Source: Candidatus Saccharimonadota bacterium
Lineage (GTDB): Bacteria > Patescibacteriota > Saccharimonadia > Saccharimonadales > UBA4665
Direction: 5' to 3'
DNA: 36,693 nt
Assembly: GCA_003153395.1 (NCBI GenBank)
Contig: PLYP01000007.1
Span: 1 to 36,693, forward strand
Each line of letters starts with the position of its first letter. The stretch's first letter is position 1. The notes below the pieces were generated by a model. The model had not been told where the DNA came from. It was given only the letters and a program-made list of their open reading frames with translations, and searched no databases. Shown in pieces: positions 26,755 to 31,630 of the stretch. The position numbers and the translations under genes are program-made.

Positions 26755-28515
26755 TTAGAGACTATTTAACTTTTGTAAAAATTGATCAAACACCTGTACT
26801 TTTGCTAGTAGTTTTTTAGTTGGCATAGTCTTTTTTTCTGTCCAAACAACATCTGGACTATACGTTTCCAAAATCTGAGCATACGGAACTCTACTAGCTC
26901 CAACGAAAATTGATACGTCGACAATTGTTGACGCACCGTTACTTCTAAACTTTGTATTGAAGCTACTACTTAACACCTTTTCTGTCGCAACATTAGTCTG
27001 TCTTGTAAAAGCGATACCTTGGTTTCTGAAAGCTTTACCCATTGACTTACCGCCGACAACAGCACGATGTATTTCCGGATAGGCATCGATGCCTTTTTGC
27101 ATAAACTTAACTTCTGACAGCTCTAATATTTGTTTACTGGCAATTACTTTAGTGCTTATAATTCGTCTATTATTATCTTGATAAAGAATTTTTACTTCGG
27201 TAGGCCCGAATTGTTGTTCTAATATATCACTTGATAATTTAGTTTCGTGAATATAGGCTGGCATGAAAGATTTGGCTTTATCGAGAGACTCCTGGTATTC
27301 TCCCCCCTCGGTTGAGTCGTAAACTATTCCTCCCCCGACCGATAAATACACATTCTTATCTTTTTTTAGTATTGTGCGTATAGCAGTATTGCTATCAAGG
27401 TCACCGTTTGGTTTGATGCTAAAAATAGATCCGTAATATATATTTCTGCGTTTTACTTCAAGTTCATCGATGATCTCCATTGATCTTTTTTTAGGACAGC
27501 CAGTAATAGAGCCGCCCGGTAAAACGGAAATTAACGCTGCTATGGGACTGACGTCGTGTATAAGTTTACCGGTTATTTTTGAATTTGCATGCCAGAGTGT
27601 TGGATATCTTCTCATTTCCCTTATTGCTTCAACACTCACTGAACTAACTTCAGATATTGCTCCTAAATCATTACGCATGAGATCAGTTATCATATTTAGC
27701 TCCGCAGCGTCCTTGGGATTATTTAGTAAATCTTTTCTATTTACTTCGTCTTCTTTGGTTGTGTTACCTCTAGGTCGAGTACCTTTAATTGGCAATGTCT
27801 CGATATAGCCTTTTGTTACCCGTATAAAGCGCTCCGGCGAGAGACTAAGAATCTCGAAGTCATCACCCTCTATATAGGCTTGAAAATCGGATTGGCTTGA
27901 ACTCGATAAACTGCAGAATAAATCTCGGGCATTTGAGTCAGTTTTTCCTTCCAAGCGGTGAGTAAAATTTATCTGATAGACATCACCGTCCTCAATATAT
28001 TGTTTTACCTTCTTAAATGCGCGCCTATAATCACTACGTGATTGGGTAGGGTGAAGCAAGGTTGAATAGGGTTTCATAGGTAAATTGCGAGCTGGGCGCA
28101 GCAAGATATCTTTCACTGTGGCTATATACTGCGTACTTCTCGAGTGTATATGCGCGCCAGACTCGTCAAAGGTAATCCAATTATCAAAACTGGCTAAAAG
28201 GGCTAATGGCGTTTTAATGTCATCATCAGACTTGAGAGGAACGCCGTGCATCATAGCTCCAAAATCATATGACAAGTAACCAATTAATAAACGCCCCTTA
28301 CTTCGCTGTTCTTCAGCAAATATTTCGATCTCTGAACTGATATCTTCTACCCGAGCATGCGCTGGCTTATAGATTGAAGCAGGATTCCAGCCTAGTACAT
28401 TGCCCCAGCTGTCTGACGACACGCCGGCGTGAGCGAAAACGCTTTTATCATCGTCTCCCAACCGGGCAAGTATGTCTGTTAACTTAACTCCAGGTAACAT
28501 TAAGGACTTTTGCAT
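26755..28515 (-). CDS. pabB: Aminodeoxychorismate synthase component I (PabB) fused to a chorismate lyase-like domain
   Basis: PabB converts chorismate plus ammonia to 4-amino-4-deoxychorismate, for folate. Residues 1-425 are the chorismate-binding enzyme: DVYQINFTHRL (178-188), SPERF (226-230), PIKGTRPRG (242-250), MITDLMRNDLG (275-285), PGGSITGCPKKRSMEIIDELE (333-353) and GGGIVYDSTEGGEYQ (394-408). The Lys in PIKGT (K244) marks PabB; TrpE has Ala there. Residues about 430-586 are extra. They resemble UbiC/DUF98 chorismate lyases, with a strand like EVKILYQDNNRRIISTKVI (440-458), GGKSMGKAFRNQGIAF (488-503) and TKFRSNG...IFVGAS (521-541). By eye the UbiC catalytic Arg and Glu are not clearly kept. 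It overlaps pabA by 16 bases. There is no pabC in the window. Confidence 0.88.
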   Translation of the reverse strand: MQKSLMLPGVKLTDILARLGDDDKSVFAHAGVSSDSWGNVLGWNPASIYKPAHARVEDISSEIEIFAEEQRSKGRLLIGYLSYDFGAMMHGVPLKSDDDIKTPLALLASFDNWITFDESGAHIHSRSTQYIATVKDILLRPARNLPMKPYSTLLHPTQSRSDYRRAFKKVKQYIEDGDVYQINFTHRLEGKTDSNARDLFCSLSSSSQSDFQAYIEGDDFEILSLSPERFIRVTKGYIETLPIKGTRPRGNTTKEDEVNRKDLLNNPKDAAELNMITDLMRNDLGAISEVSSVSVEAIREMRRYPTLWHANSKITGKLIHDVSPIAALISVLPGGSITGCPKKRSMEIIDELEVKRRNIYYGSIFSIKPNGDLDSNTAIRTILKKDKNVYLSVGGGIVYDSTEGGEYQESLDKAKSFMPAYIHETKLSSDILEQQFGPTEVKILYQDNNRRIISTKVIASKQILELSEVKFMQKGIDAYPEIHRAVVGGKSMGKAFRNQGIAFTRQTNVATEKVLSSSFNTKFRSNGASTIVDVSIFVGASRVPYAQILETYSPDVVWTEKKTMPTKKLLAKVQVFDQFLQKLNSL

Positions 28516-29166: not shown

Positions 29167-29195
29167 TTGACCCAATATACCTAATCTGGTATAGT
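29167..29195 (+). promoter_or_regulatory. Promoter of the DAHP synthase leader
   Basis: TTGACC (29167-29172), exactly 17 bases, TATAGT (29190-29195), with an extended -10 TG at 29187-29188. Seven bases beyond the -10 box is 29202, one base before the ATG of the leader peptide at 29203, so the transcript should be leaderless or nearly so. No Shine-Dalgarno sequence is present, which agrees. Confidence 0.75.
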
Positions 29196-29202
29196 CTTGC
29201 TT

Positions 29203-29280
29203 ATGAAGCAGCTTAGATCAATTCAAAACTGGTTTTTCTTTACCGACACTTTTATTGGCGGTAAGTTTGCTGTGAACTAA
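29203..29280 (+). CDS. Attenuator leader peptide rich in Trp and Phe
   Basis: A 25-residue open frame too short for normal gene finding. Residue 10 is Trp and residues 11-13 are three Phe in a row (NWFFFT), with more Phe at 17 and 22. Aromatic codon runs just before a terminator are the mark of a leader peptide that senses charged tRNA by ribosome stalling, as pheL and trpL do in enterobacteria. The stop TAA at 29278-29280 is 27 bases before the terminator stem. The peptide itself probably has no function. It should start translation directly at the mRNA 5' end, since the promoter places transcription start at 29202-29203. Confidence 0.8.
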   Translation: MKQLRSIQNWFFFTDTFIGGKFAVN

Positions 29281-29329
29281 AAAAAGATTAACCACAAGAC
29301 TACCAAAACCGCCAATAAGGCGGTTTTTT
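29240..29329 (+). promoter_or_regulatory. Transcription attenuator with mutually exclusive hairpins
   Basis: Four segments can pair in the classic way. Segment 1, TTACCG (29240-29245), pairs with CGGTAA (29259-29264) of segment 2. Segment 2, TTATTGGCGGT (29252-29262), is an 11-base perfect complement of segment 3, ACCGCCAATAA (29308-29318), forming the antiterminator. Segment 3 (ACCGCC) also pairs with segment 4, GGCGGT (29319-29324), forming the terminator. A ribosome stalled at Trp/Phe codons 10-13 (29230-29241) would cover segment 1, free segment 2 and so prevent termination. A ribosome that reaches the stop covers segment 2 and lets the terminator form. Confidence 0.8.
29308..29329 (+). 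terminator. Intrinsic terminator of the attenuator
   Basis: The stem ACCGCC (29308-29313) with GGCGGT (29319-29324) closes a five-base loop AATAA, extended by three A-T pairs, and runs into six T (29324-29329). It is the strongest intrinsic terminator in the window. It stands directly before the ribosome binding site of the DAHP synthase rather than after a gene. Confidence 0.85.
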
Positions 29330-29345
29330 ATATAAGGAATGAGTT

Positions 29346-30521
29346 ATGGAAACATTGACACAAGAAAGAGTAAATAGCAGGCCTGAGCTTGAAGCGAAAC
29401 TCTTACATCACTGGGCATTAGATCCGTTGGCTGCATCAGAATTGTCTAAAGGTGTCAGTGATGTTGGGGTTGAACATATAGATGGCTTGCTCCATAACAT
29501 TGAATCTGACTGGGATGCAATAGAGAAACGAGACGAAAACAGAGAAGAAATAAGTAGAATTATAAGCGGTGAATCAGATAAAAAATTAATTGTTGTTGGT
29601 CCGTGCTCGCTAGACAATAAAACTAAAGACTATGACAAATTGTTTGACTACATTGAAGAATTACAAGCAGAGCATCCTGATGCCTTAATAGCTCTGCGCG
29701 GCAACGGCGCAAAACCTAGAACCCAAGGTAAATTTAGAGGCCTGTACTACAGTACAGATCCTCAGGATAGACAAATCCAATTAGACGTATATAAGGATGC
29801 ATTTAAACGAGGTATACCTATCCTTACGGAAATTACTAATACCAATGAATTCGCTACCTTGGCACCTTACTTAAGTGCTATCTGGCTCGGGGCTCGCGAT
29901 ATGGGTTCTACAGATAAAAGATCACTATGCACAGCCACAAGAATTCCTGTTTTTATAAAAAACAGCCAAGACGGAAGTCCAGATACAGTTGAAAGTGCTA
30001 TCAGAAGCATAGGCATGAACACTGAAGATAATGAAGGCAGCGGTGTTGATCTAGGTTTCTTGAGTGCTACATATCTAGTTAATGGTATGCCGGCTAATAT
30101 AACAGTCGGCGAAGGCAATAAAAGCGTGGGCATAATAGCCCGAGGTCATAAGCTCGAAAATGATCTAGGACCAAGAACGCGTAAACGCCTGGTTCTAAAA
30201 CATATCGGAGAATTATGTACTCTGGCTGCAAAATTAAATACTGTAGTTCTATTAGATGGCAGCCATGATGTGCCGCCAATGCTAGATATACCAAAGACAG
30301 ACGGGGATAGATTTCCGAAAGTAGTCGATATTCTACTTAAAGCAGCCAGGCAAGGTCGTATAGTACATGCCGAGAGGCTGGCAGGATTAGTTGGAGAAGT
30401 GGGAACGACGGTAGGCGAAACAGATAAGAACATGATAATAAATGTAGCTAATAAGAAACGCATAACCACTCACTTAAAACGGCTGAAGTTATTAAGCCAG
30501 CACTTAGCTTTACTAATGTAA
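29346..30521 (+). CDS. 3-deoxy-7-phosphoheptulonate (DAHP) synthase, class I
   Basis: The enzyme joins phosphoenolpyruvate and erythrose 4-phosphate, the first step to chorismate. Its 391 residues are AroF/G/H-like but quite diverged. Visible matches to the family are VVGPCS (83-88) with the metal ligand Cys87, AKPRTQGKFRGL (122-132), GARD (182-185), IKNSQDG (204-210), and likely metal ligands His307 (DGSH), Glu343 (HAERL) and Asp360. An extra N-terminal region of about 60 residues could carry feedback control. AAGGAA lies seven bases before ATG 29346. Its expression is probably set by the Trp/Phe attenuator upstream. Divergent pabA/pabB use its product pathway. Which aro paralogue it corresponds to is not clear, so no symbol is given. 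Confidence 0.9.
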   Translation: METLTQERVNSRPELEAKLLHHWALDPLAASELSKGVSDVGVEHIDGLLHNIESDWDAIEKRDENREEISRIISGESDKKLIVVGPCSLDNKTKDYDKLFDYIEELQAEHPDALIALRGNGAKPRTQGKFRGLYYSTDPQDRQIQLDVYKDAFKRGIPILTEITNTNEFATLAPYLSAIWLGARDMGSTDKRSLCTATRIPVFIKNSQDGSPDTVESAIRSIGMNTEDNEGSGVDLGFLSATYLVNGMPANITVGEGNKSVGIIARGHKLENDLGPRTRKRLVLKHIGELCTLAAKLNTVVLLDGSHDVPPMLDIPKTDGDRFPKVVDILLKAARQGRIVHAERLAGLVGEVGTTVGETDKNMIINVANKKRITTHLKRLKLLSQHLALLM

Positions 30522-30598: not shown

Positions 30599-31630
30599 AT
30601 GAGTAAACCAGTAATCCTGACAGGCCTCAGGGCTAATAACGACCTCCACATCGGTAATTACCTAGGCGCACTGTTGCCAATAGTCGATATGGCCAATACA
30701 AAGTCTGATGAGTATCAGATTAATCTGTTTATACCCGATCTACACAGCTTTACTACTCCAATAGACCATGGGTCTCTTCAGGACGGTATCATGAATAATT
30801 TAAAATTGTATGTTGCTGCCGGATTTCCTCTAGATAATCCAAACGTTCATATATATAGACAGAGTTATATTCCTGCTCACAGTGAATTAACCTGGATACT
30901 CGACTGCTTTACCGGAATGGGCGAAATGTCTAGAATGACTCAATTTAAGGATAAATCACTATCTCTCGGAGAAGACAGAATAAGCGTAGGGCTTTTTAAC
31001 TACCCTGTATTAATGGCGGCCGACATACTGCTATATGGCGCAAGTTACGTGCCCGTTGGCGAGGATCAGTCTCAGCATATAGAATTTACGCGGGACGTTG
31101 CTGAGCGAATCAATTCCCAGTTTGGAGATATTTTTGTCATCCCTAAGCCCGTAAATGAGCAGCACGAATTCTTCGGTAAAGATCAAGGACTTAGAATTAA
31201 AGACCTAGTTGATCCGACTAAAAAGATGAGCAAATCTAGTGATAGTTCAAAAGGCATAATTTTTCTTAACGATGATATAGGCTCAGTTAAAGATAAAATA
31301 ATATCTTCTACTACAGATAGCATGAACTTAATTTCATATAGTAAAGAAACGCAGCCGGGGATAGCTAATTTAATAGATCTGTTGGCGCTAATAAGTGGTA
31401 AAAGTATCGAGGAAATAAAATCTAAGTACAACGGTCAAACACAGTACGGTCCTTTTAAGAATGATGTAGCAGAAGCTATGTCCAGTTTTATTGAAGAGTT
31501 TCAAGCTAAGCTTCTCGGGGTTGATGAAAGCGCAATCATGGAAAAACTAACTACTTCTGAAAAACAGATGAATGAGATAGCTAATTCGACACTCTTAAAA
31601 GTCCAAAAAGCGGTCGGACTGAGAAAGTAA
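30599..31630 (+). CDS. trpS: Tryptophanyl-tRNA synthetase
   Basis: It charges tRNA-Trp with tryptophan in the cytoplasm. The 343 residues are standard for this class I synthetase. The signature HIGN is at 17-20 (family HIGH) and KMSKS at 209-213. LTGLRANNDLHIGNYLGAL, PVLMAADILLYGA and VPVGEDQSQHIEFTRDVAERIN are characteristic of TrpRS. No Shine-Dalgarno sequence precedes ATG 30599. -10-like boxes TATACT (30570-30575) and TATACA (30577-30582) lie close, so a very short leader is possible. Following an attenuator-controlled aromatic gene, it places tryptophan supply and use together. The RluA-like gene starts at the next base. Confidence 0.95.
   Translation: MSKPVILTGLRANNDLHIGNYLGALLPIVDMANTKSDEYQINLFIPDLHSFTTPIDHGSLQDGIMNNLKLYVAAGFPLDNPNVHIYRQSYIPAHSELTWILDCFTGMGEMSRMTQFKDKSLSLGEDRISVGLFNYPVLMAADILLYGASYVPVGEDQSQHIEFTRDVAERINSQFGDIFVIPKPVNEQHEFFGKDQGLRIKDLVDPTKKMSKSSDSSKGIIFLNDDIGSVKDKIISSTTDSMNLISYSKETQPGIANLIDLLALISGKSIEEIKSKYNGQTQYGPFKNDVAEAMSSFIEEFQAKLLGVDESAIMEKLTTSEKQMNEIANSTLLKVQKAVGLRK

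Follow-up and report, generated by a model that had tools for sequence, protein, structure and literature searches.

A predicted ribosome-mediated transcription attenuator before DAHP synthase and trpS genes of Saccharimonadales

In a Saccharimonadales bacterium, the gene for a class-I DAHP synthase is preceded by a leader peptide open reading frame (ORF) with clustered aromatic codons and by RNA segments that can form either an antiterminator or a terminator, and homologous leaders recur throughout the order. We hold it very probable, on comparative sequence evidence, that this element is a ribosome-mediated transcription attenuator that senses charged aromatic tRNAs. On a wider scale, we lean slightly towards the existence of an order-wide regulon in this part of the Candidate Phyla Radiation (CPR), in which leaderless mRNAs with a mixed Tyr/Phe-Trp-Phe ribosome sensor would report aromatic supply to trpS and to the aromatic synthesis or scavenging genes that each lineage has retained, with recoding to single amino acids for branch-specific genes. 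To our knowledge, very little is known about gene regulation in CPR bacteria. A putative attenuator with precise parts can now be read from sequence in over a third of the sampled Saccharimonadales genomes, and it hints at a way in which an epibiont may monitor the amino acids available to it.

Architecture of the leader

The window, by which we mean the whole stretch of DNA that was analysed (36,693 nucleotides), makes up a single contig of a genome of 0.92 Mb that is rated complete. The following features were found, with positions numbered along the window.

29167-29195, plus strand: promoter read from the sequence, with -35 TTGACC (29167-29172), a 17 nt spacer and extended -10 TATAGT (29190-29195); a promoter scan lists the -10 with TG
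29202-29204, plus strand: putative transcription start at the leader start codon, placed from the -10, which ends 7 nt before the ATG
29203-29280, plus strand: leader peptide ORF MKQLRSIQNWFFFTDTFIGGKFAVN, 25 residues and stop, read directly, with homologous leaders in relatives
29230-29241, plus strand: control codons Trp-Phe-Phe-Phe (codons 10-13), at the position of the Tyr/Phe-Trp-Phe core of relatives
29240-29245, plus strand: segment 1, protector strand TTACCG, 6 bp with CGGTAA (29259-29264)
29252-29264, plus strand: segment 2, antiterminator 5' arm, with a GGCGG core (29257-29261)
29306-29329, plus strand: intrinsic terminator, hairpin AAACCGCC-aataa-GGCGGTTT (29306-29326) and U-tract to 29329, -11.8 kcal/mol
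29308-29318, plus strand: segment 3, shared as the 3' arm of the antiterminator and the 5' arm of the terminator, pairing with segment 2, terminator loop included
29334-29338, plus strand: Shine-Dalgarno AAGGA of DAHP synthase, read from the sequence, outside and 3' of the terminator
29346-30521, plus strand: class-I DAHP synthase, 391 aa, first gene controlled (PF00793, E = 1.5e-19)
30599-31630, plus strand: trpS, tryptophanyl-tRNA synthetase, second gene of the presumed operon (TIGR00233, 286 bits against a cut-off of 177)

The stretch TTATTGGCGGT of segment 2 (29252-29262) pairs without a mismatch with its reverse complement ACCGCCAATAA (29308-29318) over 11 bp. The resulting antiterminator and the intrinsic terminator, which lies between the leader ORF and the first gene, are mutually exclusive. 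Predicted energies for the 1:2, 2:3 and 3:4 pairings of this leader are -6.4, -18.7 and -11.8 kcal/mol, respectively; by these values, the first and last together balance the 2:3 pairing, as the attenuation model requires. The core of segment 2 starts 15 nt past the last Phe codon. A covariance model of the element (see below), run with filters off, scores 69.5 bits at this leader and at most 18.6 bits elsewhere in the window. The coordinates that the initial annotation had given for the promoter, the 25-codon leader, the antiterminator, the protector and the terminator are right to the base when read against the sequence; its label of 'translational attenuator' should be replaced by transcription attenuator worked by translation.

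The DAHP synthase retains the motifs GPCS, KPRT, GAR, KN, RG and SH, and a profile of its relatives matches solved DAHP synthases (to 1.5e-80), which suggests that the enzyme is probably competent; the protein scored below curated NCBIfam cut-offs. Its nearest named relatives come from Candidatus Saccharibacteria or Saccharimonadales MAGs, which bears out the CPR placement implied in the initial annotation. A contig scan with the protein alone returned no matches and a scan with the DAHP synthase alignment returned three relatives; plasmids yielded distant matches only, and no relatives were found among the viral contigs searched. Genes for TrpG/PabA-like and TrpE/PabB-like proteins lie upstream in divergent orientation. 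The C-terminal part (about residues 420-586) of the TrpE/PabB-like protein (26755-28515, minus strand) is without any Pfam match.

Proposed mechanism

From this anatomy and its conservation we infer the transcription start, the stalling and termination events, and the response to starvation. RNA polymerase would start at or beside the leader ATG, and ribosomes would load on the leaderless transcript. When charged tRNA-Trp and tRNA-Phe are plentiful (together with tRNA-Tyr in most relatives), the ribosome is predicted to reach the stop codon and to make segment 2 unavailable to segment 3, such that the 3:4 terminator would form and transcription would end before DAHP synthase. If instead one of the aromatic tRNAs lacks its amino acid, the ribosome is predicted to stall on the control codons (29230-29241) and thereby to cover segment 1. 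Segment 2 could then pair with segment 3, the terminator would not form and the DAHP synthase-trpS operon would be transcribed.

Leaders before DAHP synthase in related genomes

Of 393 genomes of the order searched with a profile of the enzyme, 31 had a class-I DAHP synthase; in 26 of these 31, reading of the upstream regions placed a leader directly 5' of the gene. Each of the 26 consists of an ORF of 20-27 codons followed by a terminator (for example, peptides MSRLSANSNQYWFTDSSRGGYFAVFA, MKVKAQNYFYFWFTNPLKWRIAYNYQ and MNKLAVFFYWFTGPQLAVCSVRCSS). The aromatic cluster includes Trp in 25 of them, usually as Tyr/Phe-Trp-Phe; the exception, in genome G104, uses Tyr codons only (MKTNYVNYTYQVAFSGRVCL). 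The set of sensed amino acids originally proposed, Trp and Phe, thus fits the Trp-Phe-Phe-Phe run of the window and has to be widened to Tyr/Phe-Trp-Phe as the usual set across the order. Three genomes (G102, G133 and G149) have no leader directly before DAHP synthase and carry the element before trpS instead, and in G172 it precedes a prephenate dehydratase-racemase-DAHP synthase operon in which DAHP synthase is the third gene; for the fifth genome lacking a counted leader (G244), the upstream region was left out of the reading. A point against attenuation is the small number of control codons: roughly one for each amino acid in most members, where classical leaders have more.

Conservation and covariation of the pairings

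The 2:3 pairing of the window leader is reached by 2% of codon shuffles and by none of 300 nucleotide shuffles. Permuting the codons after the core, leader by leader across the 26, left the real 2:3 duplex at the extreme end of the shuffles in nearly all of them, with Fisher p values of 4e-27 (codon shuffles) and 7e-29 (nucleotide shuffles) from counts that ignore kinship among genomes drawn from many families. Covariation was then measured on an alignment of the 26 leaders made from primary sequence. The antiterminator is paired in 79% of cells, a share that drops to 32-52% if the pairing is shifted by 1-3 columns. For covariation it scores 0.183; shuffles give 0.111 +- 0.019, and none among 500 reaches the real value. 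Two antiterminator pairs fall on the first bases of the terminator loop, where the terminator itself imposes no constraint, and both sides of these pairs have changed in 5 and 3 sequences. The terminator is paired in 81.6% of cells. The 1:2 protector hairpin, exact in the window, is paired in 59% of cells over the set, where it is not more stable than in codon shuffles (p = 0.07); some members may instead rely on pausing or on another protector. RNAalifold predicted no structure on the 26-sequence alignment, in which long gaps and competing pairings probably prevent any one consensus from emerging; the named structures were counted instead.

The GGCGG core of segment 2 is read in frames 0, 1 and 2 in 32, 9 and 38 leaders, respectively, and it follows the Trp-Phe codons at a distance of 14-15 nt in 55 of 68 leaders. 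Because all three frames are used at a mostly fixed distance, segment 2 appears to be kept as RNA and not as peptide. A ribosome stalled on the cluster would be expected to leave segment 2 exposed at roughly this spacing. Inspection of the region upstream of this gene in relatives had been suggested as a check on the initial annotation, and the pairings and aromatic codons are indeed conserved there, with covariation, in strong support of the attenuation mechanism that it put forward.

The same data bear on a simpler reading, in which an ordinary terminator ends a short transcript, the ORF is present by chance and the operon is expressed through constitutive read-through. GCC-stemmed terminators often occur in intergenic regions, and a simple terminator scan of the window registered no excess of terminators in the region, having missed the one at 29306-29329, probably because extension of the stem consumes the T-run. 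However, covariation is found outside the terminator stem, the spacing is fixed and the order of promoter, leader, antiterminator and terminator is conserved over approximately 100 loci. Furthermore, the upstream neighbour is divergent and there is therefore no upstream transcript to end. We regard this reading as exceedingly improbable.

Promoter placement and leaderless start

The best -10 hexamer ends exactly 7 nt 5' of the start codon in 13 of the 26 DAHP synthase leaders, and the -10 distance again peaks at 7 nt across all 107 homologous leaders, which include those described in the next section. A full promoter in the same layout is present in 58 of the 107, versus 3.3 +- 1.6 in shuffled upstream regions. 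Motifs resembling a Shine-Dalgarno sequence precede 2 of the 107 leaders, versus 17 of 22 DAHP synthase genes. Because the -10 usually ends 7 nt before the start and a Shine-Dalgarno sequence is absent, the leader mRNA is probably leaderless, with its transcript probably starting at the leader ATG. With such a design, ribosome loading on the leader would not depend on a ribosome binding site.

Some other genes of these genomes also look leaderless. The prephenate dehydratase gene of G104 (L148, upstream of 1369) has a -10-like box approximately 8 nt before its start codon and, given this box, leaderless mRNAs may be common in Saccharibacteria.

Distribution across the order

Run against 345 genomes of the order, a covariance model built from the sequence-only leader alignment has matches in 127 (E<=0.1), and the element thus occurs in far more genomes than class-I DAHP synthase does. 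We read 81 further matches besides the 26 DAHP synthase leaders, and trpS is located within approximately 1.9 kb in 61 of them. The first recognised gene among the 81 is prephenate dehydratase in five (PF00800), class-II DAHP synthase in three (identified by PF01474 in L069) and tyrA in one (PF02153). A leader in G012 precedes DAHP synthase, tyrA, chorismate mutase/prephenate dehydratase and aminotransferase genes, and one in G121 precedes a similar operon that ends in trpS (gene names in both were assigned partly by reading the sequences, and some were checked by Pfam).

The idea that the element is a property of DAHP synthase, as it had been presented, was dropped: the covariance model places most copies before trpS, which also follows in the operon of the window. 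Stand-alone prephenate dehydratase or prephenate dehydrogenase genes in G104, G105, G184, G103 and G134 have no clear leader, and hence the element is not universal for the pathway. Weak or contig-end matches L126, L134, L135, L053 and L116 are without a clear leader-gene assignment.

Control codons and downstream genes

In six leaders, the control codons match the product of the genes that follow. Trp-Trp leaders precede trpEGDFCBA (G104) and trpC-F (G012), Phe-Phe leaders precede prephenate dehydratase (G165) and chorismate mutase-prephenate dehydratase (G318), and Tyr-rich leaders precede tyrA (G005, with Tyr-Tyr) and DAHP synthase-aminotransferase-tyrA (G104). Within G104, a Tyr leader is found on the Tyr operon and a Trp leader on the trp operon. 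In the G165 leader the logic is retained although the sequence differs (GGGGGCTT with AAGCCCCC). These matches, few as they are, would be hard to explain without codon sensing, and the related operons offer natural codon-swap variants for testing the attenuation model.

The codon patterns also address the possibility that Tyr-Trp-Phe-Thr is an arrest peptide, which would stall the ribosome by its own sequence or in response to a free ligand such as tryptophan, rather than in response to uncharged tRNA. TnaC is an arrest peptide of that ligand-responsive type. In favour of this reading, the core of the peptide shows striking constancy, with [YF]WF in 83 of 107 leaders, and it does not change before trpS, where sensing of Tyr and Phe is hard to explain. 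Such sensing is not obviously useful where only trpS follows; our guess is that the Tyr and Phe codons of trpS operons were inherited from an ancestral aromatic operon. However, Phe-Phe, Tyr-Tyr or Trp-Trp can be present instead before prephenate dehydratase, tyrA or trp genes, several leaders have additional aromatic codons inserted (NWFFFT, YWFYFT, YWFVYFT) and the residues past the core vary. An arrest peptide is therefore an unlikely basis for the element.

Relationship to known regulatory systems

The best Rfam matches to the region are Phe_leader (RF01859, 31.6 bits against a cut-off of 55), Trp_leader (RF00513, 25.1 bits against a cut-off of 41) and Leu_leader, all below cut-off, and no Rfam leader family reaches its cut-off at the related loci. 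The operon might alternatively be controlled by a tRNA-binding T-box or a protein-bound, TRAP-like leader, with the ORF being incidental, and T-boxes usually control trpS and aromatic genes in Firmicutes. Yet neither a T-box nor any other cis-regulatory family of Rfam reaches the gathering level in the window or at 20 related loci, the ORF fills most of the space between promoter and terminator, and codon content tracks the target gene. Control of this kind is very unlikely.

The attenuator that we propose shares the four-segment logic of E. coli trpL and pheL. Those two leaders each sense one amino acid and carry a Shine-Dalgarno sequence, whereas the Saccharimonadales leaders have a mixed aromatic cluster and no Shine-Dalgarno sequence.

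An attenuator before DAHP synthase is not new in itself. The aroR-aroF attenuator of C. glutamicum has a Phe-Tyr-Phe leader before DAHP synthase and is reported to operate by ribosome stalling and to answer to Phe and not to Tyr (Neshat et al. 2014, via PMC11802643 and PMC4046766). As far as aroR is described in these sources, the two systems are alike in that aromatic codons stand in a leader peptide upstream of DAHP synthase; that description mentions no Trp codon in aroR, whereas the Saccharimonadales element nearly always has Trp and, unlike aroR-aroF as described there, spans an order and mostly serves trpS. Attenuators have been predicted for Streptomyces trpS, and actinobacterial trp leaders have double or triple Trp codons (PMC1262725). 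The present element is like that of Streptomyces in placing a leader peptide attenuator before trpS, and unlike it in using Tyr/Phe-Trp-Phe in place of Trp doublets or triplets. According to PMC4046766, which cites Morbach et al. 2000, the ilvBNC leader peptide of C. glutamicum lacks a ribosome binding site; it offers a parallel for an attenuator leader translated without a Shine-Dalgarno sequence, although it concerns branched-chain amino acids in another phylum. A search of open-licence papers found no such attenuator described in Saccharibacteria or the CPR, which agrees with the initial annotation on this point. What is new here is the occurrence in the CPR, together with the putative regulon across the order, the mixed set of aromatic codons and the probable leaderless design.

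Pathway content

Control of 'entry into the aromatic pathway', the role first suggested for the attenuator, is not established. Pathway content was tested family by family, and all 14 control genomes matched each family. Chorismate synthase (PF01264) had no match in 28 Saccharimonadales genomes, including the genome of the window (G000), which also had no match for prephenate dehydratase, prephenate dehydrogenase or TrpA. Among the families tested, no pathway for DAHP synthase is evident in this genome, which counts against our best explanation. Some of the 28 genomes still have DAHP synthase, tyrA, prephenate dehydratase and trp genes, which implies an unrecognised chorismate synthase or salvage in those genomes.

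Intervening genes and duplicated elements

After the leader, trpS is often preceded by a small variable ORF or an Asp/Glu racemase-like gene. Poorly conserved ORFs of about 60-155 aa lie between attenuator and trpS in L046, L049, L051, L062, L071, L072 and others, and one such ORF had no match when searched against Pfam. Racemase-like genes occupy this position in L070, L079, L090, L100, L111, L123, L128 and L133, a LysE-type exporter does so in L102, and AstE/AspA-like genes are found there in L058, L075 and L115. Two copies of the attenuator, in tandem or close together, occur in G098:C10, G107:C29, G171:C23 and G178:C21, and in some of these the aromatic codons of the copies differ.
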